Shown here piece by piece: positions 254 to 34,220 of a stretch of 39,041 nucleotides of DNA. Below the pieces are notes generated by a model. That model saw only the letters and a list, made by a program, of their open reading frames with translations. It was not told the DNA's origin and did no database searches. Within the stretch, counting starts at the first letter, position 1, and each line of letters starts with the position of its first letter. Made by a program: the position numbers and the translations under genes. This stretch comes from a virus: positions 1 through 39,041 of the IMG/VR virus record IMGVR_UViG_3300047496_000205; one strand, given 5' to 3'.

Positions 254-820
254 ATGACAAATAACATTCCTATGTCAAACGAAAGTTTAAATCAAAATCC
301 TCTCAACAGTTCCGATTCAAATAGCATTGACTATCGCTATGCTATAGTCAATGGAACCACTATGACAGGCTCTCTTATTTTGAGCGAAAATCCAACAGCT
401 AACTTACAGACGGCCTCAAAAGAATATACTGATCTCTATGGAGAGAACTTAAATCCAAATGTGATTACAAATGTTATGAGATATCCAGCATTATTACCTA
501 ATGCTGTAGTTAATCCTATAGTAGTATATATGAATCAATATTATGATGACAGACTTTTTCTAGTTCCTGGAGGCAATCAGTATGGAACTACTCTGGTATT
601 GCCTGCTGATGAATCCTACAACCATCCTATTGGAACTGTAATAGAAGCTATTTCCGGAGAATATAATTCAAATTTATATGTTGCGGCTGGTCCTAGTGCA
701 ATTGTATATATCGATAATGCAATTGATTCCGCTGATAGCGCCGGATTGTTTGCACACGTGCTCGCCACAAAAACTTCAGCAAATACTTGGACTGTTACCG
801 GAGATGTAACACCAGACTAA
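254..820 (+). CDS. Tail fibre/tip protein, paralogue of the upstream gene
   Basis: 188 residues. The ATG at 254 is preferred over an in-frame ATG at 218 because 218 lies inside the upstream gene, while 254 is 2 bases after its stop and has a GGA-containing ribosome site. Residues about 31-60 contain the classic phage fibre motif: a G-x-MTGSL-x-L stretch followed by P-T-x-N-L-Q-T-AS-KEYTD, equivalent to the MTG-L-L ... AATKQYVD repeat of tail fibres. The last 90 residues form the same tip module as the upstream gene, ending TVTGDVTPD. It probably belongs to a fibre trimer that contacts the host surface. Unlike the other structural genes nearby it lies on the + strand. Its stop overlaps the convergent homing endonuclease gene by 4 bases. 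Confidence 0.7.
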   Translation: MTNNIPMSNESLNQNPLNSSDSNSIDYRYAIVNGTTMTGSLILSENPTANLQTASKEYTDLYGENLNPNVITNVMRYPALLPNAVVNPIVVYMNQYYDDRLFLVPGGNQYGTTLVLPADESYNHPIGTVIEAISGEYNSNLYVAAGPSAIVYIDNAIDSADSAGLFAHVLATKTSANTWTVTGDVTPD

Positions 821-2652
821 GAAATAATCTTTGTCCATAACCAAACGGAGTTCCCACAATCCCAAATCTTTGTGTAATTCATAGAAAGCATGAATTGTTT
901 TTCTGTTAATTTTGGATCACAACCGTTTTTAATCAAATTAGATTTTCTAAAAGTAAACCTATGAAGTCTAGGCCCAACACTGTTTTTACTATACCAATAA
1001 CCAGGAGCGGTATTGTGAGAAAATTTCATGCCCATTTCTTGATAAACTTTTCCTGTTCCCCATCGTCTATCACAATAAGAAATTATTTTAGAAGGCTTAT
1101 ATTGTTTTTTGAAGTAAGAAAACATTTTACTTGCAATTCCAGGAATCGATCCTATTGATGCCATTCTTAATATTTCCCATTCATCATGAACTTTGTTTTT
1201 ACTCCCTAATGCATTACGTAAATGACCAAAAGTCATCACAGATAACAGTTTACCGTTAAAAAAAGCACCCAATTTTACTTTACTCTGATAATATCCTTGT
1301 ATATGATTATCAATTAAAAAAGTTTTTGCTTCTTTAGTGGTTATTTCTTTTACTATCGTCTGCCTTGCTCCACAAATTTTAGTATTTTTACCAAGTATAT
1401 GACTAATTTTATCTTGAATTAAGCTTAAATTTTTTATTTCATCTTCAAATATAGTGATTAAACGAATGCCTAATTCGTTACACTTTTCTAATTTGTTCAA
1501 ATGATATTTTTTATCTTTTCCCTGTTCTTCTGAATGCCAATATAACCCACAAACTTCAATAGCTAATTTTTTATCTGGTAAATAAAAATCAAGTTCAAGA
1601 GGCTTTATTATTGAACGATTACGAATCAATACATTTGTTTCTCCGCATTCTAATAAAAAATTATAAATTATTTGTTCAGGCGTAGTTAAATTTTTATTGT
1701 AGGTTACATCATATTTTATCAAATTATAACGAAGTGTTTGACGTGTTAATAAAGGATATGTAAATAATATTCCTTTTACACCAAGTCTATAAAATTCTGA
1801 AGTAAATGTTTCCTTATTACTGATTAGTTTTAATAAAGCACTGTCGTAATTTTTTTGATTGTAATAAGGCGCCCCATATTTTTCCAAACATGTATTTCTT
1901 ATTTGATCTTTTAATGCAAAACTATCCATAGGTTTTGTAGAGCCCCAACGAGCTAAATTGGTAGACAATTGTTTTTCTCTACATTTTTTATTTTGTAATG
2001 CATGATCTACGCCATATCTTTCTTGCATTACTCCTGTAAATTCATCACGCCGACTTATAAATGTCCCATTATATTTTTCACGCTGAGTTTGTAACGTTTT
2101 AGCAGAAATTTCAGTATTGCTCATGGGTGATTCAAACCCATAAATCTGTTTATTTTTAGTCTTTATCTTATTTTTTATTTCTGGATTCATTAAAGAAGTT
2201 TTAAAGCCAAATTTTTCAATTGAAGTTTTTTCTACTTTTTCTCGAAATTTATTACTCTGAGAAATATGTTCAACACCATAACGATTTAACACAGTTCTTT
2301 TTCTTTTTTCATTGGCAACTAGAATATCGTCGTTAGTCATATTTTGTTTTGCATTTGAAATCTTTAAACTGTGATTATCATGAGCACAGCGACATTTAGA
2401 TGGGATTCCACAAAACGTTTCCTTCGAAAGATTTTTATCCCACTTTAAATACTTTTTTTCATATTTGCATATACTAGGAAGTTTATTTGTTTTAATTAAA
2501 TAAATTCGTTGGTGTAATGAAATACCTTCAATAAATGCAGTTAGTCTCTCAACTTCTTCAACCAAATTTGATCTATTCTTAATCAATATATAAGCTTTAG
2601 ATTTCAGGATCGCATCTGATAATTCGGATGAAAGTTCATATTTTTTACTCAT
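817..2652 (-). CDS. Free-standing homing endonuclease (Hef/Vsr-like phage type)
   Basis: 611 residues from ATG 2652; a GTG at 2667 is in frame but would sit inside a promoter box. The middle holds at least four degenerate repeats of the type (R/K)YG-(V/A)-x-(H/Y)-x-x-Q, e.g. RYGVEHISQ, RYGVDHALQ and KYGAPYYNQ, which are DNA-binding repeats in phage homing enzymes. Residues about 335-400 form a Vsr-like PD-(D/E)xK fold: LELDFYLPD with D355, then AIEVCGLYWHSE with E366. The C-terminal 150 residues carry a YCDRRWGTGKVY motif followed by W-YSKN, a conserved domain of this enzyme class. It cuts DNA lacking its own gene and so spreads between phages. It is inserted between + strand fibre genes and - strand structural genes and has its own late-type promoter boxes. 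Confidence 0.85.
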   Translation of the reverse strand: MSKKYELSSELSDAILKSKAYILIKNRSNLVEEVERLTAFIEGISLHQRIYLIKTNKLPSICKYEKKYLKWDKNLSKETFCGIPSKCRCAHDNHSLKISNAKQNMTNDDILVANEKRKRTVLNRYGVEHISQSNKFREKVEKTSIEKFGFKTSLMNPEIKNKIKTKNKQIYGFESPMSNTEISAKTLQTQREKYNGTFISRRDEFTGVMQERYGVDHALQNKKCREKQLSTNLARWGSTKPMDSFALKDQIRNTCLEKYGAPYYNQKNYDSALLKLISNKETFTSEFYRLGVKGILFTYPLLTRQTLRYNLIKYDVTYNKNLTTPEQIIYNFLLECGETNVLIRNRSIIKPLELDFYLPDKKLAIEVCGLYWHSEEQGKDKKYHLNKLEKCNELGIRLITIFEDEIKNLSLIQDKISHILGKNTKICGARQTIVKEITTKEAKTFLIDNHIQGYYQSKVKLGAFFNGKLLSVMTFGHLRNALGSKNKVHDEWEILRMASIGSIPGIASKMFSYFKKQYKPSKIISYCDRRWGTGKVYQEMGMKFSHNTAPGYWYSKNSVGPRLHRFTFRKSNLIKNGCDPKLTEKQFMLSMNYTKIWDCGNSVWLWTKIIS

Positions 2653-2656
2653 GTTA

Positions 2657-2684
2657 TATTTATACACGAGCTTTGGTATTTATA
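2657..2684 (-). promoter_or_regulatory. Two tandem T4-type late promoter boxes before the homing endonuclease
   Basis: Two exact TATAAATA boxes on the - strand: 2677-2684 and 2657-2664. The nearer one ends only 4 bases before ATG 2652, so RNA from it would start at about the start codon. The outer box would give a leader of about 20 bases. TATAAATA is the T4 late-promoter consensus; use here is inferred. Confidence 0.65.
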
Positions 2685-17754: not shown

Positions 17755-20700
17755 TTAACTAATCCGTAAATTATTTGGTGTGTTAGAATTAATTATAATA
17801 ATATTTGAGACTTGTGCAGTGCTGATAAACAACTCATCACTTCGGCACTGAATTTCAAACAAATCACCAAATGAAGCTCCACTAAATGTTGGAACTAAAA
17901 CAATGCTTCCAATTATGTTTGGTAGTTGTTGATGAACATATGCTGCCAATTCCGTAAAATAGAAACTCTCTCCAAAATCCCAATATTGAACGCTGAAATA
18001 ATTGTTGATTGCACGAACAATTTGGCTGGTGATTTCACCGGAACTTAGGGTTGATGTTGGAACGGTTATGACCTTAAACTGCGCCTGTAACTCTGGATCG
18101 GCCCCTGGCCCAAACAGGAATTTGTATTGAACTGGGCGCCAAACGATTTGGTCACTGTATATTTTATATTGCTCAAAATCTTGGAATGCAAGGCGCAAAT
18201 CTAGTTCTGTGGGCGCGGTAGGCATTTGCGAAGGAATGGCTCCGGCGGCGATCCAGAGGCGCACCAAATAATCATATGATGACGTTAGGACAAAAATATC
18301 GTTTATGTTCGTTCGAGCCGGGTCGATTCTCTGATTTATCGGTGCATAATGTTTCCACTGGAACATCATAGCCTCTGGAGATTGTAAAACAACTGGAGCG
18401 GTATTTGCGGCATACCAACGGCCAGCGACATTTGATCCTCTACCAATACCATATGAATATGTTCCTGGACCTTGTAGGGTCCATGTAGAAGACGTTGAGT
18501 TGGCCGTAGTGCATAGCCAAAATGTGTTTGTAAGCAATGCGTTATTGCTATTGATTTGGAAACCGACCGTATTTACAGATACAACCGTATTAACGCGATC
18601 TGTTTCTTCTTCAAACATATAGACCATATTTGGAAATGGTATATCACCATAAGTATCGTCATGTTGCCAGAACAAATGATTTTGGGCGACGCTATTGGAA
18701 ATAATTTTTTCAAAAGTATCTGGATAATCAGAAGTACCAGTTAAGAAACTATCAGCAAAAGTCACTGTAATTCTTCTAGGATTAGCTGAACCATTACGAT
18801 TGAAGTAGATTCTGTTGATGTCTAAGTCATAATTTTGACTAAGAGCGACGCCGGTAAGCGTAGTCGTATTAGCAACAAAGTTGTTCAAATCTTCATTAAC
18901 TTTCAGAACTCTTACTAAATCGTTTGCAACAACACCTGTATCTTGATCAGTCGTGCGACTTCCGTCATAAAACCATTGAACGTTATTATTGCTCTCAAAA
19001 ACATATCTTAATCCATTAGCCGAAAGCGTCCAAGTTCCTGCGCCAGAGTATTGAACTGCCATAATTTGGAACATGGTTGAAGTAGGCGATACAGGATTCG
19101 CGCTAGAAATAACTACCCAAGGAGATTGAACAGAAGAAGGATACACACTATAATCATACCAAAGAGTAAAAGATAAGTTATTAGTTAGATTTGTTGTTAT
19201 TGCTGCAACAGTAATAGAATCCAAAACTGTAAAGAAACTTGGAATAATATATTCTATTGTTGAAGTCGATGGGATAATGCGAGAAAGAGTTACTGGTCCA
19301 GCGGTTCCGGCTGGAGGAGCGATAGTTGGATCACCAACAATACTCACAATAGTTGACCACATAGGACCAGACCCAGTATTAAATAATACTGTCGCCCCTT
19401 GACGTAAATATGTTGGTGAAGCACTAAAATAGCCAGTATTACTAAAACTTGTATTAGAAGAAGCTTGCGTCCAAATTATACCAGATGCCGAAACAATTTG
19501 CGTATAAAGGTACGAATTAATATAGTTAATCACTTCAACTCTATCAATCATAGGCTGAATATATTGAGTTATTATATTACTTGCCGATGCATTCAAGGTA
19601 ATAGGTAATTGCGTATAAATATTATACTTTTCTTGAAAGAAAATACCATCATCTGAGAAAACAACTACGTCTTTATATGTTCCAGTTGGATCGTTTAAAT
19701 CAATAAAACGAGAATGACCCGAGTATATTCTATTAGTGGATTTGATTTTTGTGGCCAAATTACTTTGAAGTGGAAATGTATTATAATCCTGTCCTGACAC
19801 CATTCTATTTTGGGTGGCATACACAGATGGTGCTCTAGCTTTTACCTGATCATCCGTTTCGGCTGGAGCGGAGTTAGATATGGTCTGTTCCAAAGAAAAC
19901 GTTAGTGTCAACGTCTGCTTTACACCGCCTCTATTGTAATAAGGAATAGATAAATTCACATTTTGTATATCGGTGGGTTGAATTTGATATTGAAGTCCAT
20001 TTGAAGTACGATAAAAAACTCGTATATTACCAGTGGGCACATTGCCAAACAAACCATCGGAGAACCGAATACCTATTGAATCATTTTCGCCCGTAATTAC
20101 GGCAAAAATGTCTCTAATAGATGGATCAATATTGTTATAAGTTATGTTTTGACTAAAAATCGCGGGAACTTTTGTCCATGAATATAAAATATCTCCAGAA
20201 TCATTTACAGTTTGAACCCAAACATCTGAATTATTTACGCCGGTCGCATTGACATTTATAATGTTGTTTTCTATTGGATTAGGAATATTATATGTTGCTC
20301 TTTGTAATGTTCCTTGTTTAAATAACATGAAAAAACCAGTTAAACTACTGGAATATCCTTGCCCATCGTTCATATATAATACATGAAGAGCATCTGAAAA
20401 ATTTGGCTCACGTTCTACTATAGAACCACCATCAATAAAATCACTATTGACTACACTAAAATCCATATTAGTGCCACCGATTGATTTCGAAAAAGCAAGA
20501 TTAGCATCCGACATTACATTATTAAAGCGATAAAGCTGAGTATTTATTGATGCTACCAACCCGCTATTAAGTGGAACTCCAAACTGATTGGTTGAAATAA
20601 AAGAACTATTGAGAATTAACAGAAAACGTTCAAACCAATTTGGATCATCAGGATTATCCCATACTATCGTTTGATTATTTAAATTGGCACCAAAAGAATC

Positions 20701-21090
20701 ATATACATTATCTGTAGTTTTAATACCTACTAATTTTAAAATTCCTTGTGCTTCTTGGTTACGTTGTGGATTATATGAAATAAAACGAGCCAGTCGTAAA
20801 ATAGCGGTTCGTGTTTCGGCAGTGTCTAGAAAACTTTCTCTGGCATTAATATCCGTTCTAAAAGCTAATGTTCCGGCTAACCATGAAAGAAGATCGATGA
20901 TCGCTACAAATTCAGACGAAGTAATCCAATCGTTATAATTCTCCGGATAATTTTGCTGCAAATATGCCTGTAATGCAGCATTGATACTGGCTGGATCAGA
21001 GGCATTAAAATTAATATCGGTGAAAGCTTGATATAAAACCGTCCAATCATTTCCAGCGAACAAATCCGATTGTCTAAGTGATTGACTCAT
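17755..21090 (-). CDS. Baseplate wedge protein, T4 gp6 / baseplate J family
   Basis: 1111 residues, against about 660 for T4 gp6. The N-terminal signature of the family is clear: residues 60-110 read EFVAIIDLLSWLAGTLAFRT, then INARESFLDTAETRTAILRL, then ARFISYNPQRN. The C-terminal 150 residues contain YDYLVRLWIAAGA, then QYKFLFGPGADPELQAQF and ITSQIVRAINNYF, which match gp6-type ends. The middle carries extra beta-rich Asn/Thr/Ser segments that account for the larger size. gp6 forms the ring joining the wedges around the tail hub. The gene lies 32 bases downstream of the gp25-like gene, in the order expected for a wedge operon. The ribosome site is AAAAGGAAA before ATG 21090. Confidence 0.88.
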   Translation of the reverse strand: MSQSLRQSDLFAGNDWTVLYQAFTDINFNASDPASINAALQAYLQQNYPENYNDWITSSEFVAIIDLLSWLAGTLAFRTDINARESFLDTAETRTAILRLARFISYNPQRNQEAQGILKLVGIKTTDNVYDSFGANLNNQTIVWDNPDDPNWFERFLLILNSSFISTNQFGVPLNSGLVASINTQLYRFNNVMSDANLAFSKSIGGTNMDFSVVNSDFIDGGSIVEREPNFSDALHVLYMNDGQGYSSSLTGFFMLFKQGTLQRATYNIPNPIENNIINVNATGVNNSDVWVQTVNDSGDILYSWTKVPAIFSQNITYNNIDPSIRDIFAVITGENDSIGIRFSDGLFGNVPTGNIRVFYRTSNGLQYQIQPTDIQNVNLSIPYYNRGGVKQTLTLTFSLEQTISNSAPAETDDQVKARAPSVYATQNRMVSGQDYNTFPLQSNLATKIKSTNRIYSGHSRFIDLNDPTGTYKDVVVFSDDGIFFQEKYNIYTQLPITLNASASNIITQYIQPMIDRVEVINYINSYLYTQIVSASGIIWTQASSNTSFSNTGYFSASPTYLRQGATVLFNTGSGPMWSTIVSIVGDPTIAPPAGTAGPVTLSRIIPSTSTIEYIIPSFFTVLDSITVAAITTNLTNNLSFTLWYDYSVYPSSVQSPWVVISSANPVSPTSTMFQIMAVQYSGAGTWTLSANGLRYVFESNNNVQWFYDGSRTTDQDTGVVANDLVRVLKVNEDLNNFVANTTTLTGVALSQNYDLDINRIYFNRNGSANPRRITVTFADSFLTGTSDYPDTFEKIISNSVAQNHLFWQHDDTYGDIPFPNMVYMFEEETDRVNTVVSVNTVGFQINSNNALLTNTFWLCTTANSTSSTWTLQGPGTYSYGIGRGSNVAGRWYAANTAPVVLQSPEAMMFQWKHYAPINQRIDPARTNINDIFVLTSSYDYLVRLWIAAGAIPSQMPTAPTELDLRLAFQDFEQYKIYSDQIVWRPVQYKFLFGPGADPELQAQFKVITVPTSTLSSGEITSQIVRAINNYFSVQYWDFGESFYFTELAAYVHQQLPNIIGSIVLVPTFSGASFGDLFEIQCRSDELFISTAQVSNIIIINSNTPNNLRIS

Positions 21091-21624: not shown

Positions 21625-23139
21625 ATGACCCCTACTGTTCAGCAAGAAACTTTTCTGGAAGCTCTTATCAATACCAATGAAAATCTTTCGCTGGTTGCCC
21701 GCGCTGGTTGTGGCAAGACGAGCACTATTCTTCTCGCGGTTGATGCCGTCGCCAATAAATGGCCGACTGCCGAAATTGCGGTTTGTGCCTATAATAAGTC
21801 GATTGCTGACGAAGTTTCTGAAAAACTTAAGTTGGCTGGACATACGAATTGGCGAACGGTTCAAGCCAGCACTTTGCATTCCATGGGTTTTGGTCTGGTA
21901 AAGTTTATTTTCAAGCCATTTGTTGATGACAAGAAAATTCGCAAATTGATTGCTACTCAAAATGATAGCATTTCTGCCGTATATTCTTATCAAATTGAGC
22001 AATTGGTTCGTTATGCCAAACAAGCTGGTGTTGGTTTCTTTTCTGATTCTCCTATTTCCAACGTGCAAGTCTGGTATGATTTGGCGGATCATTTCAACAT
22101 CAACGGCGTTGATGATATGGGTGATATGGATCAGATCGTGGATATTTCGCAAAAGATTTATTCCGCTTCCTTGGCTCAAACAGACGTCATCGATTTTGAT
22201 GACATGATTCTTTTTCCTTTGATTAAGAACCTGCGAACGAAATTTACAAAAGATTTCATTTTTCTTGATGAAGCTCAAGACCTTTCCCGAGCAAGGCAAG
22301 CTTTGGCTCGCAAGTTTCTTAAAGCCGGAAGTGGCCGTATGATTATTGTTGGTGATGATCGCCAAGCCATTTATGGATTTTCTGGCGCAGATGCGGCGGC
22401 TCTGGACAATCTTACCAGTGGATTGAACGCCAAGAAGTTTCCTCTGTCAATTACATGGCGATGCCCTAAGGCCGTTGTTGCTCTGGCTCAACGGTATGTT
22501 CCCGATATTCAAGCTGCACCTAATGCGCCAGAAGGTGAAGTAATGATAATTTCGATGCAAGAAGAAGAAAGTGCTAAGGCTTGGATCAATAACTTAGTTC
22601 CAAACGATGCCATTCTTTGCCGTAATACCGCGCCCTTGATCACCTTGGCCTATAAACTGATCCGAGCCGGTAAGGCGGTCAAAGTCGAAGGCCGCCAGAT
22701 CGGAGAAGGTCTTCAAGCTTTGGCTAAGCGTTGGAAGGTTAATACCATTGATGATCTTCTCAACAAGCTCGATATATATCGAGATCGCGAAATTCAAAAG
22801 GCTATGGCCAAGAGCAATGAGTCCAAAATTGACGAGATCAATGATCGGGTAGATACCCTGGTTGAAGTTTGCGCTGCTTGCATTTTGCAAGGAAAGACTA
22901 CTGTTAACGATGTGTGCCAGTTCATTGATAATTTGTTTGCGGATGATGCAGAAAATGTGATAATTTGCGCTACATATCACCGAGCCAAAGGGCGCGAATG
23001 GGATCGTGTATATTTGTGGGAACATTACTCGCGCTGTCCGTCTAGGTTCGCCACCCAACAATGGGAAAAGGATCAGGAATCCAATCTTGCTTATGTGGCT
23101 ATAACGCGAGCCAAGCGGGTTCTGGGCTTTGTTTCTTAA
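21625..23139 (+). CDS. UvrD/Rep-like superfamily 1 DNA helicase
   Basis: 504 residues from ATG 21625, with AGGAGA five bases upstream. All core SF1A motifs are present in order. Motif Q lies near TPTVQQ, Walker A is ARAGCGKTST (residues 25-34, K31), and Walker B is FLDEAQD (D215, E216). Motif III is VGDDRQAIYGFSGA (about 242-255), motif IV is SITWRCPKAV, motif V is ATYHRAKGREWD (about 450), and motif VI is AYVAITRAKR near the C-terminus. It should unwind or translocate on DNA by ATP hydrolysis during replication or recombination. It is shorter than bacterial UvrD (about 720), as phage forms often are. Its DNA is visibly GC-richer than the structural genes, which may reflect later acquisition or early-gene codon use. 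Confidence 0.93.
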   Translation: MTPTVQQETFLEALINTNENLSLVARAGCGKTSTILLAVDAVANKWPTAEIAVCAYNKSIADEVSEKLKLAGHTNWRTVQASTLHSMGFGLVKFIFKPFVDDKKIRKLIATQNDSISAVYSYQIEQLVRYAKQAGVGFFSDSPISNVQVWYDLADHFNINGVDDMGDMDQIVDISQKIYSASLAQTDVIDFDDMILFPLIKNLRTKFTKDFIFLDEAQDLSRARQALARKFLKAGSGRMIIVGDDRQAIYGFSGADAAALDNLTSGLNAKKFPLSITWRCPKAVVALAQRYVPDIQAAPNAPEGEVMIISMQEEESAKAWINNLVPNDAILCRNTAPLITLAYKLIRAGKAVKVEGRQIGEGLQALAKRWKVNTIDDLLNKLDIYRDREIQKAMAKSNESKIDEINDRVDTLVEVCAACILQGKTTVNDVCQFIDNLFADDAENVIICATYHRAKGREWDRVYLWEHYSRCPSRFATQQWEKDQESNLAYVAITRAKRVLGFVS

Positions 23140-28481: not shown

Positions 28482-28691
28482 TCAATCTCGAATTTTGAAT
28501 TCAGTATTTTTTCCATTAAACACCAAATTACCGCTAATGAAAGCATCTTCATGTTTTACAAAAAGAAGCCAATGTTCAATAATCTGTTTGGCGTGATCTA
28601 AATCATCAGCGTGTAGATCAATTTCTACAACTACTTTATGCTTAGGTTTAGAAGAAAAACTACTAAAAAAATCAGAAATATGTTTGGACAT
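28482..28691 (-). CDS. Small hypothetical protein (69 residues)
   Basis: Starts at ATG 28691, inside the last codons of the upstream Lar-like gene (20-base overlap), with only a weak GAAAG ribosome site. After a Ser/Lys-rich N-terminus it reads HKVVVEIDLHADDLDHAKQI and SGNLVFNGKNTEFKI, suggesting a small alpha/beta fold. It is unrecognised. Confidence 0.55.
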   Translation of the reverse strand: MSKHISDFFSSFSSKPKHKVVVEIDLHADDLDHAKQIIEHWLLFVKHEDAFISGNLVFNGKNTEFKIRD

Positions 28692-28953
28692 TTGATTCTT
28701 TCGGGGCTAGGGTTGCGGTGTCTTCCGCTGATACGTCGGCGGAATAGTGGACGGGGCGCGTGTTCCATCGGGCAACCGCACTGGCGCGCTGGACGGCGGC
28801 AGTTGGCCCGGTGCCATGAGCAACACCAGGACAGAGATTGTCTTCACAAAAAACGGCGGCGAAACACCTTGATCCGCCCTTACCGACCGCCTCAAGATGG
28901 GCTCTCCGTCCACAAAATGGACAGGGTAAAAGGGCCGGAACTTCTGTCTGCAT
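28672..28953 (-). CDS. Lar-like restriction alleviation family zinc protein (93 residues)
   Basis: ATG 28953 follows a perfect AGGAGA ribosome site; longer starts are unlikely. The sequence starts MQTEVPALLPCPFCGRRAHL, with C11 and C14. A second Cys pair is at C36 and C41, and the AVARWNTRP motif is at 60-67. This LLPCPFCG ... C-x4-C ... WN-R pattern is that of the Lar/restriction alleviation family, whose founding member modulates type I restriction; most phage copies are untested. It is clearly GC-richer than the flanking genes, which suggests recent acquisition. A sigma70-type promoter lies upstream, consistent with early anti-restriction action. Confidence 0.75.
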   Translation of the reverse strand: MQTEVPALLPCPFCGRRAHLEAVGKGGSRCFAAVFCEDNLCPGVAHGTGPTAAVQRASAVARWNTRPVHYSADVSAEDTATLAPKESNVQTYF

Positions 28954-28986
28954 ACAAATATCTCCTATGCGTTTGCTTATAAACAC

Positions 28987-29911: not shown

Positions 29912-31180
29912 TTACAAAAGTTTGTTAAGGGTTTGTGACACAATTACGGAATAGTCGATTTGAGGTGCATGTCCTGCAATTATTACCGTTGGTTTTTGTG
30001 AAAGGGCTACCATGTTTTTAGCGGCTGCGATAACATTTTCTTTAGTCATCGATTTGATTGTTTTTACAAGTTCTTCACGAGAACGAATTTTTTTCATAGA
30101 AAAGAAATCGGAAATCGCACGAATACCGGATTGCATCCTATTTTCATTTTCCAAAACAACGCCTCGAAGCATAGCGTTAATACTTCTATCCCAATCTGAA
30201 TTTTGAATACCTTCGGTAATATTAAGCAATTCTTTACACAAGGCAGATACAAAAAGAGGAGTATCTTTTGGTGAAGTTGCTCCATATAAAAGAAAAAGAC
30301 TATGATCAGAATTTTTTATGACTGTGGCGCCAACGTCATAACATAATCCTCGTTGCTCTCTTAATTCCTGAAAAAGAGGTGATGCCATACCGCCGCCCAA
30401 AATATGAGCGAGAAAAACGTATGAACTTGCCTCTAGGCCGCCAGGAGCAGGAAATGCAATACCGATATGAGCTTGTTCATACGTGGAATCAAATTTTTGC
30501 GCAAACCCACCGACATACTCTGCTCTAGAGGGAATAATTCTTCCTGAATTAGGAATATTACCGAATTCCTTTTGTATTTTCTTAACAAATTTATCATGCT
30601 TTATATCACCAACACAAATAACAGCCATATTGCTAGTGTTATAATGACTTTTCATATATGATCTAAGCATATCTGCTGAAAATGATCGAACTTTTTCTTC
30701 ATTTCCCAAAATAGGGCGACCCATTGGTTGGTTTGGATATGCGGTTGATGAAAGCAAATCCATGGCGACTGCTTCAACATCATCAAGATCGCGATAAATT
30801 TCTTGCACTACTGCGTTTTTCTCTCGTTCAATTTCTACTGGGTCAAAAACAGAATTTTGAATGACATCAGAAAGAATATTTAGAGCCGGATCAATATGTT
30901 CTTTCAGACCGTTAACATAAAATCCAGTTATCTCCCGTCCGGTAAAAGCGTTAATATCGGCTCCAATTTGTTCAATTTGGAGAGCAATATCTTTAGCTGA
31001 TCGTGTTTCAGTTCCTTTGAAGACACAATGCTCAATCATATGAGAGATGCCATTTTCTTGTTCTGTTTCAAATCGGGCTCCAGCATTAACAAAAACGCCT
31101 ACCATTGCACTTTTTATTGGTTGTTTAACGGTTATAACCGTTAAATCGTTAGACAACGTGGTCAACTGAGTTTTTGACAT
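29912..31180 (-). CDS. M16-family zinc metalloprotease (insulinase/processing peptidase type)
   Basis: 422 residues, the usual length of MPP-beta/PqqL-type M16 subunits. The inverted zinc motif H47-M-I-E50-H51 is intact and the third zinc ligand E127 lies 76 residues later in NAVVQEIYRDLDD, exactly as in active members. NAFTGREITGFYVNGLKEH is the conserved strand after the motif. The C-terminal half keeps the substrate-clamping R/Y pair in FQELREQRGLCYDVG. No signal peptide is visible, so it should act in the cytoplasm. M16 enzymes cut short unfolded peptides or presequences. Such a complete protease is unusual in a phage; its target is unknown. A sigma70-type promoter points to early expression against host proteins or peptides. 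It may be host-derived. Confidence 0.92.
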   Translation of the reverse strand: MSKTQLTTLSNDLTVITVKQPIKSAMVGVFVNAGARFETEQENGISHMIEHCVFKGTETRSAKDIALQIEQIGADINAFTGREITGFYVNGLKEHIDPALNILSDVIQNSVFDPVEIEREKNAVVQEIYRDLDDVEAVAMDLLSSTAYPNQPMGRPILGNEEKVRSFSADMLRSYMKSHYNTSNMAVICVGDIKHDKFVKKIQKEFGNIPNSGRIIPSRAEYVGGFAQKFDSTYEQAHIGIAFPAPGGLEASSYVFLAHILGGGMASPLFQELREQRGLCYDVGATVIKNSDHSLFLLYGATSPKDTPLFVSALCKELLNITEGIQNSDWDRSINAMLRGVVLENENRMQSGIRAISDFFSMKKIRSREELVKTIKSMTKENVIAAAKNMVALSQKPTVIIAGHAPQIDYSVIVSQTLNKLL

Positions 31181-31212: not shown

Positions 31213-31241
31213 CTTATATCAACGGTAATTGGTTTTGTCAA
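31213..31241 (-). promoter_or_regulatory. Strong sigma70-type early promoter for the protease
   Basis: TTGACA (31236-31241), 17-base spacer, TATAAG (31213-31218), on the - strand, about 33 bases before ATG 31180. It is a near-perfect bacterial promoter. It sits next to a + strand late box at 31247-31254, giving a divergent early/late pair. Confidence 0.8.
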
Positions 31242-31246
31242 TCATG

Positions 31247-31254
31247 AATAAATA
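31247..31254 (+). promoter_or_regulatory. Late promoter box for the + strand operon
   Basis: AATAAATA, then GGATG, then ATG 31260. The gap to 31260 is 5 bases, the same as elsewhere, and favours this ATG over the one at 31257. Confidence 0.6.
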
Positions 31255-31259
31255 GGATG

Positions 31260-31889
31260 ATGGCAAGCACCGATTTAGAAAAAATTCAGGATTCACCACA
31301 TCTAATTGATATTTTGATTCAAATGGAAGATGTTCTTGATTCTTTAGATATTTACGTTTTCAAGAATTGGTCACGTGGAATTATAGCTGAAGGCCCAGTA
31401 ATCAGACGATATTGGCTGGATTTTACATTGAGATACGATTTTGATAAAATGCCTGATCCAAAAGCGGCTCTTAGATTATTGAAGCATGGTCTCAGAGTTG
31501 ACTTCTGGAAGGGAAAATTGCAAAATGGCGAATACGTGGATTACAAAGATGCTCCAGCAGATTCAGATCAAAGCAATGATTTACCAGAGGGTGGTAGTTT
31601 AAACGATGTTGACGAAAGTCAAACCGAAATTACCCAAGATAAAGATTTAGTTTGGCTTGTTCGTATATCTATACCAAGACGTTTAATTCAACAAATGTCT
31701 GCGGAAGAAAATATGTTCTATGAGGAAGAAGTTGATACCGAAGATGTCGAAGCTGCTGAAGATTCTGGTATAGATGACGAAAGTGCATATATGAGCGATG
31801 AAAGTGGTCAAGAAGGAGGACAGATGCCGCCAAATCAATTCGGTGGGCAAAATGAACAAGTACCACCAGGACAAGGACAACCTAGATGA
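31260..31889 (+). CDS. Conserved phage protein of unknown function (209 residues)
   Basis: First gene of a + strand late operon. ATG 31260 is chosen for its spacing to the late box; ATG 31257 is adjacent. The ordered part (residues 1-150) contains MEDVLDSLDIYVFKNWSRG, then VIRRYWLDFTLRYDFDKMPD and KHGLRVDFWKGK, and recurs in T4-like environmental phages. The last 70 residues are acidic then Gln/Gly/Pro-rich (GGQMPPNQFGGQNEQVPPGQ), so probably disordered. The stop overlaps the next start as ATGA. Late timing suggests a virion or assembly role, which is inferred. Confidence 0.65.
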   Translation: MASTDLEKIQDSPHLIDILIQMEDVLDSLDIYVFKNWSRGIIAEGPVIRRYWLDFTLRYDFDKMPDPKAALRLLKHGLRVDFWKGKLQNGEYVDYKDAPADSDQSNDLPEGGSLNDVDESQTEITQDKDLVWLVRISIPRRLIQQMSAEENMFYEEEVDTEDVEAAEDSGIDDESAYMSDESGQEGGQMPPNQFGGQNEQVPPGQGQPR

Positions 31890-32617
31890 GCACCATAACA
31901 GAAGGTATGCGTCCTAATGATCTCGAAGATTTAATTCTTCCTATGATTACTATCGATGAATTTGAAAGTAAAGTAGATGAAAACGCAGTTGTAGTTGGTT
32001 TTTATGTTAACGATAAAGATGGAGCAAATGATCTAAATCGCTTTATTCAAAAATCAGCACTCAAAATATTAGATACTGACGTATCACCAGCCCCGGATCA
32101 ACATGGATATTATTTGGTATTCGTTGAATTTTTGAATGATTCAAATATTTCAGAAAATATTAACTCGTTAGTTGAAGAAATTGTTCCATTATCTGGAAAC
32201 GATAAATGGCAGATGAGTATGAGAGGAATTGATGGTATCACTAATTTTTCTGCAAAAACTGTTAAAAAACATTTCCAGGCTATACGTGATCGAAATAACA
32301 AGAAAAATGTTATAGAATTTTTTAAAAATAGTGATTTAACAAATGTAATTGTAGAAAATGATGTATTAATACTTGAAGGATACAGAAATAAATTTAATGG
32401 TAAAATTTTATCTATTGGCTCAGAAATGGAAATATTTGTTTCTTTCAATCTTTTAGAAAGTGCTTTACAGTTGGATTTAGAAACGTCGGCCGAATACATG
32501 CGTATATCGCGATTTTTAGGAGAAGGTTGGTTGGCAAGTCGTTTTGGTTCTACCACACTTCTTAAGCAAGAAAATTCTGATGTGGTTCTACTTCTCGGAG
32601 ATGCCAATTTTACATAA
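31886..32617 (+). CDS. Conserved phage protein, probable virion component (243 residues)
   Basis: Translationally coupled to the previous gene by a 4-base overlap. The N-terminal half reads LPMITIDEFESKVDENAVVV then GFYVNDKDGANDLNRFIQ and VSPAPDQHGYYLVFVE, a pattern I associate with a conserved late protein of marine T4-like phages. The middle has NDKWQMSM and the C-terminus strands and helices without known motifs. Late operon position suggests a structural or assembly role. No T4 gene name can be given. Confidence 0.6.
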   Translation: MSTITEGMRPNDLEDLILPMITIDEFESKVDENAVVVGFYVNDKDGANDLNRFIQKSALKILDTDVSPAPDQHGYYLVFVEFLNDSNISENINSLVEEIVPLSGNDKWQMSMRGIDGITNFSAKTVKKHFQAIRDRNNKKNVIEFFKNSDLTNVIVENDVLILEGYRNKFNGKILSIGSEMEIFVSFNLLESALQLDLETSAEYMRISRFLGEGWLASRFGSTTLLKQENSDVVLLLGDANFT

Positions 32618-33455: not shown

Positions 33456-34220
33456 GTGGATTGGTTTAATATTAAAAAAAGACAGGAAAAACGTCACAAA
33501 GAAAAACAACGTGACGTCAAACTTGATTCCAGTAAATCAACGTTTCTGGATGCCGCTCTATTGACGGTATCAGCCGCTCATGATTTAGCAAACTCACTTC
33601 AAGCAAAGCTTACTGATAGTGCCGCACAAATAGCTGAAACGGCTAATATAATGAACGATGCTTTGATAATTTGCGATGCGAATACCGGTAAAATACAAAC
33701 ATTCAATCGAGCAGCAGAAATACTTTTTGGAAAATCATTCGAAGAAGTTAAAGACACCTATGTAGGGGAAATTTTTTCACATAGAGGTTTATCAGCAACG
33801 AGCCTTTGGTCGTTGCTTGATACGCAATTTTTGCGAGGAATACACAAAAATGGATCGATTTTTTATATAAACATCAACCATGCTTCATTAGTTCGATCAG
33901 ATGGTAGCACAATTATGTTGCTAATTATACGAGCATGTAATGATGAAACCGAAAAATGTTCTTTTACGAATAATAGTATAGTCGTAATGCAAAATAATAA
34001 AATTGTGGCAGCTAATCCTTTAGCTACAAACGAATATAAAATGGAAGATATTACGAATGCGTTATGCCATACTAATGAAGGTGAAAATAGTCTAACAGTT
34101 CAAAAAATCAATGGTCATAATGCAAAGATTAACGTAACTTCTAACAAAATATTATGGCACGGAGCTACTGCATATCTCATAACTTTAAAAGATGAATTTA
34201 AGACCAAAGGGTTCGCCTAA
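33456..34220 (+). CDS. PAS-domain protein without an effector domain (254 residues)
   Basis: GTG 33456 with AAAGGATA upstream. The first 25 residues are very basic (KKRQEKRHKEKQRD), followed by a helical segment (residues 30-60). Residues about 62-162 form a PAS domain: IMNDALIICDANTGKIQTFN, RAAEILFGKSFEEVKDTYVG, EIFSHRG, then GSIFYININHASL and LLIIRACND strands. Residues about 172-250 look like a second, degenerate PAS (SIVVMQNNKIVAANPLATNEY). No kinase, cyclase or DNA-binding domain follows. PAS domains sense small molecules or light and mediate protein contacts. It ends the late + operon and overlaps the convergent gene by 23 bases. Function in a phage is unknown. Confidence 0.8.
   Translation: MDWFNIKKRQEKRHKEKQRDVKLDSSKSTFLDAALLTVSAAHDLANSLQAKLTDSAAQIAETANIMNDALIICDANTGKIQTFNRAAEILFGKSFEEVKDTYVGEIFSHRGLSATSLWSLLDTQFLRGIHKNGSIFYININHASLVRSDGSTIMLLIIRACNDETEKCSFTNNSIVVMQNNKIVAANPLATNEYKMEDITNALCHTNEGENSLTVQKINGHNAKINVTSNKILWHGATAYLITLKDEFKTKGFA

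Follow-up and report, generated by a model that had tools for sequence, protein, structure and literature searches.

An intact M16B metallopeptidase gene with a conserved upstream TTGAC element in a clade of very large phages

What might a phage do with a complete M16 metallopeptidase, and when during infection? The question is raised by a gene at positions 29912–31180 (minus strand) of a viral DNA stretch of 39,041 nucleotides (IMG/VR record IMGVR_UViG_3300047496_000205, hereafter the window), which encodes, from an ATG start, a protein of 422 residues, P0001. Pfam searches of P0001 returned PF00675 (Peptidase_M16, E 2.5e-36) and PF05193 (Peptidase_M16_C, E 1.8e-36), which clear the cut-offs by a wide margin and together cover residues 15–336, corresponding to a single M16 half of about 400–450 residues; all Pfam matches were to M16 families, and the PF03420 (S77) domain is absent. 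The HMIEH zinc-binding and catalytic motif (residues 47–51; 31028–31042, minus strand) is followed, 76 residues past His51, by Glu127, the third zinc ligand (30800–30802, minus strand), and the C-terminal domain carries the R274/Y281 pair (REQRGLCY; 30338–30361, minus strand), in the context LREQRGLCY. His47, Glu50, His51, Glu127, Arg274, and Tyr281 do not vary in either of two alignments, one of 10 diverse homologues and one of 12 closer ones. The original prediction of a complete M16 protein with these features was confirmed by the Pfam matches and the invariant residues, and the assignment of P0001 as a complete M16B metallopeptidase is near certain; the protein is predicted to be catalytically competent. 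The same spacing is found in BHP of Bacillus halodurans (HFLEH at 46–50 and E126), as tabulated in a 2025 M16 review (PMC12731061).

Comparison with named families placed P0001 in none of the groups searched: it has no family match in PHROGs and scores far under the cut-offs of the NCBIfam equivalogs for YfmF/YfmH, PqqF, and pitrilysin (81.6/285, 76/250, 37/320, and 60/765 bits). Inspection by eye revealed no hydrophobic export segment at the N-terminus, which agrees with the predicted lack of an export signal. In the mitochondrial-type peptidase MPP, acidic subsite residues bind the substrate arginine. By-eye analysis of the alignment located the corresponding positions at E136 and D141 in the window protein, and indicated that such residues are only partly kept: they are absent from the M16 proteins of L122, L009, and L123, and shifted or lost in some relatives. 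The M16 proteins of four related loci (L118–L121) carry an N-terminal extension of about 14–18 residues with a similar start (HNFSLDHT and PNFSLDHT, for example), which the window protein lacks.

The AlphaFold2 model of P0001, computed from a 10-row alignment, has a pLDDT of 92.7 and a pTM of 0.88. Its closest solved chain is 3hdi_A (VIA Z 47.5, rmsd 2.0 Å over 409 residues), and yeast MPP-beta scores Z 45.8, so that the model exhibits the clam-half fold of the family (Z 47.5 to 3hdi_A). Sequence searches with phmmer against solved chains gave the same best match, 3hdi_A (E 3.8e-62), with MPP-beta reaching E 2.3e-48. Each of the seven M16-positive records described below contains a single PF05193 match, and a separate inactive subunit is thus not evident, which is in line with the predicted stand-alone enzyme and suggests that the phage M16B may assemble as a homodimer, the model itself being of a monomer. 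The B. halodurans enzyme is homodimeric according to the review (PMC12731061).

To place the virus, we used the baseplate wedge subunit (17755–21090, minus strand) as a marker. The wedge protein shares 41–42% identity with its counterparts in Sinorhizobium phage Phosso (469 kb) and Agrobacterium phage Atu_ph07 (490 kb), the RaK2/121Q group being a more remote relation; judged by this marker, the window represents part of the genome of a jumbo myovirus akin to Phosso and Atu_ph07. Bacterial contamination of the window was considered and rejected, since phage structural genes flank the M16 gene and the gene order recurs in independent records. Two other genes of the window deserve mention. A UvrD-like helicase gene (21625–23139, plus strand) runs opposite to the surrounding virion genes, and a 616-residue protein (817–2667, minus strand) matches the Mom family (PF25680) and DUF7487 in Pfam and a 'homing endonuclease' in PHROGs; it may represent a DNA-modification family or a mislabelled endonuclease family.

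Is the M16 gene shared by the relatives of this phage? We collected relatives by a wedge-profile scan of IMG/VR, which yielded 55 loci, and searched 48 of the 59 records derived from these loci, L052–L054, and L009, the remaining eleven loci being stretches of about 2–10 kb. The Pfam profiles found M16 in 7 of the 48 records, and a search with P0001 found the same seven, at identities to P0001 of 48% (G009), 46% (G024), 44% (G007), 42% (G013), 39% (G011), 37% (G012), and 34% (G002/L009). The wedge tree has 46 rows (44 of the 55 loci, Phosso, and the window). In it, the window and G024, G007, G009, G011, and G013, records of 26 to 578 kb, form one clade of six (SH-aLRT 99), and all six carry M16. 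Among the remaining rows G012 alone is M16-positive, and it is placed elsewhere; many of the rows labelled M16-negative are fragments, and three of them (x62, x64, and x66) carry the label without an M16 search. L009 is absent from this tree, its contig bearing no wedge gene. It encodes T4-type tail-tube and head-closure proteins, the tail tube being 60% identical to that of Phosso, which indicates that it comes from the same kind of phage. Thus, the gene is kept and intact in close relatives, being present in 6/6 members of the clade with identical catalytic residues.

Outside the clade, the profile survey found no M16 in several large records, namely, G017 (436 kb), G028 (490 kb), G030 (465 kb), G031 (462 kb), and G033 (417 kb). 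G028 is Atu_ph07. A tblastn search matched the M16 in 22 phage records, and these include neither Atu_ph07 nor Phosso. Searches of viral contigs with P0001 alone recovered no relatives of this phage, nor did searches with the gene at 31886 alone. The GC content within the clade varies from 36% in the window to 41–58% in the stretches of five relatives (L118–L122), a wide spread that suggests very different hosts. In G007 and G009 (L118 586–5083 and L119 213–4727) the baseplate wedge gene is either split or enlarged by an insert several hundred codons long, possibly through intron or endonuclease insertion.

Phylogenetic analysis was carried out on two sets of M16 sequences, one of 38 rows and one of 33 rows from which several rows of other phages had been dropped, both without near-identical viral rows and weak M16 paralogues. 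In the tree of the second set, the seven jumbo-phage M16 proteins form one clade (99/95). The G012 protein clusters with four plasmid genes of Burkholderiales (100/96), and the jumbo-phage clade joins this G012/Burkholderiales group (100/99) inside a proteobacterial group with eight alphaproteobacterial genes (100/99). The approximately unbiased tests, run on the first set, rejected both a clade of the window with the alphaproteobacterial genes (p-AU 0.0008) and a clade of the window with all viral rows (p-AU 4e-23). The nearest cellular genes are 31–39% (alphaproteobacterial) and 27–29% (betaproteobacterial) identical to the window M16. The phage and betaproteobacterial proteins (one of the four betas being aligned) read SSPL, SSPM, or ASPL where the aligned alphaproteobacterial proteins read S/T-S-R-L. 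The alphaproteobacterial homologues of Paracoccus, Sinorhizobium, and Paroceanicella are flanked by thrC on one side and by an N-acetyltransferase gene on the other. The nesting indicates a proteobacterial M16B donor without distinguishing alpha from beta; the donor proposed to be found by phylogeny was hence narrowed to this group and no further.

The M16 proteins of other phage groups descend separately, one group comprising those of phage G, L015, and L029 and another comprising nine rows, two of which (L020 and L013) come from contigs that carry SbcC/SbcD-like genes. Human-faecal records labelled 'Bacteriophage sp.' were discarded as phage evidence: L006 looks by eye like a piece of an actinobacterial chromosome, and L007 and L008 group with Phocaeicola.

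This nesting among proteobacterial M16B proteins is what would be expected if the gene were a bacterial passenger that has no role under selection in the phage. That reading is already disfavoured, and we consider it very improbable, because the catalytic residues are invariant although the members are only 34–48% identical to the window protein, the gene occupies the same locus in six phages, and the M16 tree largely matches the wedge tree. Comparison of the two trees revealed that the pairs window and G024 (86/73) and G007 and G009 (97/94) recur, with the order of G011 and G013 differing; this broad agreement suggests that the M16 gene was inherited within the lineage.

The locus itself is conserved on one side. 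Divergent from M16 lie genes for a virion structural protein of phrog_12928 (31257–31889, plus strand), which serves as the locus marker, and a second virion structural protein of phrog_13138 (31886–32617, plus strand) that is 41% identical to its Phosso counterpart. M16 is divergent from the homologue of the 31257 gene, and syntenic with the 31257/31886 pair, in the window, L119, L120, L121, L122, and G007 (L056), with extra open reading frames between the two genes in L121. In G012 and L009 the M16 gene is located elsewhere, and L009 shares two M16 neighbors with G011. An operon with a conserved partner was rejected, as the genes downstream of M16 differ between relatives. The other neighbors include a 104-residue Lar restriction-alleviation protein (PF14354, E 2e-9; 28672–28986, minus strand) about 0.9 kb downstream of M16, which sits among small minus-strand reading frames and a tRNA-Arg gene and had no counterpart at the relatives' M16 loci. 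Adjoining the virion genes is a PAS-like protein (33456–34220, plus strand; PF13426 just under the cut-off), which occurs at 33–36% identity in G007, G009, G011, and G013.

When would the gene be transcribed? Upstream of M16 lies a sigma70-type promoter-like site, TTGACA-17-TATAAG (31213–31241, minus strand). The original prediction had called it a near-perfect early promoter. The site is present as described and its TTGAC element is conserved in relatives, but taken alone it is not beyond chance: the window contains two sites scoring at least 11/12, whereas 20 Markov shuffles contained 2.95 on average, and TTGACA-like sites show no enrichment in the window. TTGAC lies at −61, −55, −56, −52, and −59 relative to the M16 start in the window, L118, L119, L120, and L121, respectively, and rereading of the L122 sequence placed it about 54 bases before the start; it is thus kept at all six clade M16 loci, about 52–61 bases upstream. 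Among 111 genes of these loci, a set without the M16 genes of L118 (where a shadow reading frame was called) and L122 (where the longest reading frame starts inside TTGAC), the element stands at −70 to −45 before 13, that is, before 4/4 M16 genes and 9/107 others. The −10 boxes are uneven or poor in some relatives, reading TATAAG in the window and TACCTT, TAGGAT, or others elsewhere.

The virion genes bear a different signal. TAAATA is the core of the T4 late promoter, and this box is found just before the 31257 gene (31249–31254, plus strand). It occurs at −16 to −8 before 7 of the 26 window genes, mostly virion genes, compared with a mean of 0.45 and a maximum of 4 in 2000 shuffles, and it precedes the homologue of the 31257 gene at five loci. 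The boxes abut the starts at 2667, 6372, 16516, 21521, 24919, and 27011 (minus strand) and 31257 (plus strand), beginning 8–15 nucleotides before them; late mRNAs made from a T4-type promoter that near the start codon would be almost leaderless. TAAATA is missing from all six M16 upstream stretches. The TTGAC element at six loci together with the absence of TAAATA favors a host sigma70-type, early transcription, and the RNA polymerase and housekeeping sigma factor of the host probably transcribe M16 early.

The proximity to virion genes raises the alternative that M16 serves to trim proteins of the head or tail, or to remove propeptides freed by the S77 prohead protease. M16 adjoins virion genes in the window and its relatives, and in L009 it is no more than about 5 kb from tail-tube and head-closure genes. 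In the other phage groups, gp2 of phage G follows the terminase gene and the L015 M16 is near terminase and subtilase genes. Well-conserved peptidases of jumbo phages mostly track virion type, according to a 224-genome jumbo-phage survey (PMC7824862). Against these points, M16 keeps the TTGAC element and lacks the TAAATA box of the virion genes, and relatives with similar virions (Phosso, Atu_ph07, and the other large records) show no M16. The S77 family was detected in 8 of 11 records, M16-negative relatives included. It is present in the M16-positive G011, G012, and G013; it was not found in G007 (a 415-kb record), G009, or G006, records that may be incomplete. With an S77 protease encoded by three large M16-positive relatives, M16 is no replacement for the prohead protease. 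M16 chambers, moreover, accept short peptides rather than folded capsid proteins. We therefore regard virion maturation as unlikely; the late head-maturation role, named at the outset as a finding that would count against an early one, was not borne out by the sequences, given S77 in three relatives and a promoter that is not of the late type.

A second alternative is nutritional, in that the enzyme would duplicate the host M16B and recycle peptides to amino acids during long infections. The closest cellular homologues do include a chromosomal-type alphaproteobacterial gene beside thrC and an N-acetyltransferase gene. However, M16 is kept in one clade and was not detected in relatives whose genomes are about as large, and M16B enzymes release fragments rather than free amino acids. 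Although bacterial M16B enzymes break down assorted small peptides, as tabulated in the review (PMC12731061), such a housekeeping role also seems improbable to us.

The reading that we prefer is that P0001 is an early cytosolic peptidase of small, probably basic peptides, serving host takeover or counter-defence; we give this statement as a whole a probability of about one half. In the proposed mechanism, the gene would have been taken from the proteobacterial M16B (MPP/RPP-type) group and then inherited with the genome, at a fixed locus, within a single clade of RaK2-like phages with very large genomes (records up to 578 kb). It would be transcribed early by the host polymerase, the virion genes using the T4-type late box. 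The product would form a homodimeric clam shell in the host cytoplasm and may cut or clear short, unstructured, probably basic peptides. Such a preference has precedents: bacterial M16B enzymes degrade assorted short peptides, and the Rickettsia enzyme RPP prefers positively charged ones, according to the table in PMC12731061, while alphaproteobacterial MPP-type enzymes have been proposed (PMC9291397) to help destroy antimicrobial peptides. Comparison of P0001 with PADLOC gave no model match, PADLOC listing host defence rather than phage counter-defence, and none of the neighborhood genes names a substrate. The original prediction is partly supported; its destruction of host or defence peptides as a new phage strategy stays a proposal. 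A broader version is more tentative: early MPP-type peptidasomes might destroy or edit small host peptides (defence, toxin, signal, or leader peptides) in the cytoplasm and constitute a counter-defence class acquired several times, the repeated acquisition being suggested because unrelated phage groups carry their own M16. We hold this version to be rather doubtful.

That phages carry M16 genes is not in itself new, since gp2 of phage G is annotated as a zinc-dependent peptidase. In the open-access literature searched, as distinct from subscription papers and preprints, we found no paper on a phage-encoded M16B peptidase. Neither 'M16' nor 'insulinase' occurs in the searched text of the 224-genome survey (PMC7824862), nor 'phage' or 'virus' in that of the 2025 M16 review (PMC12731061). 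What appears new is a clade-wide, syntenic, and intact M16B gene with a conserved, apparently non-late promoter in very large phages. A soluble M16B would thus be a gene that a clade of such phages conserves, not one that strayed in from bacteria, and the type of its promoter points towards host takeover. Substrates are unknown for most bacterial M16B members; if the phage enzyme removes specific peptides, it would provide a concrete system in which to seek both peptide-based phage defence and M16B substrates.

Comparison with known systems sets the phage enzyme among several relatives. Poxvirus G1-type and giant-virus M16 proteins are likewise virus-encoded M16-like folds, but they belong to eukaryotic viruses and are mostly two-half or highly divergent proteins, G1 having a TM-score (query) of 0.35–0.46. 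Bacillus phage G gp2, annotated as a zinc-dependent peptidase, is also a phage-encoded M16 with HFIEH and the R/Y pair, but it is 24% identical to the window protein and falls in a separate phage group of the tree. In that phage G-like group the M16 gene lies near terminase (L003 1–3212; L015 1999–7218, with a subtilase), a different protease cluster. The alphaproteobacterial thrC-side genes and the Burkholderiales plasmid genes are the nearest cellular sequences, the latter sharing SSPL with the phage proteins, yet they are cellular and stand in other gene contexts. RPP and the MPP beta subunit belong to the same subfamily as P0001, the likeness to RPP being drawn from its description; MPP differs in being an organellar heterodimer, whereas no partner gene accompanies the phage M16. 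Basic peptides and presequences are the substrates described for RPP (PMC9291397, PMC12731061). BHP (BH2405, 3hdi) of B. halodurans, the biological substrate of which is also unknown according to PMC12731061, is about 30% identical to P0001 and encoded by a cellular ymxG-type gene, but it resembles the phage enzyme in fold, active-site spacing, length, and the possession of one active subunit type.
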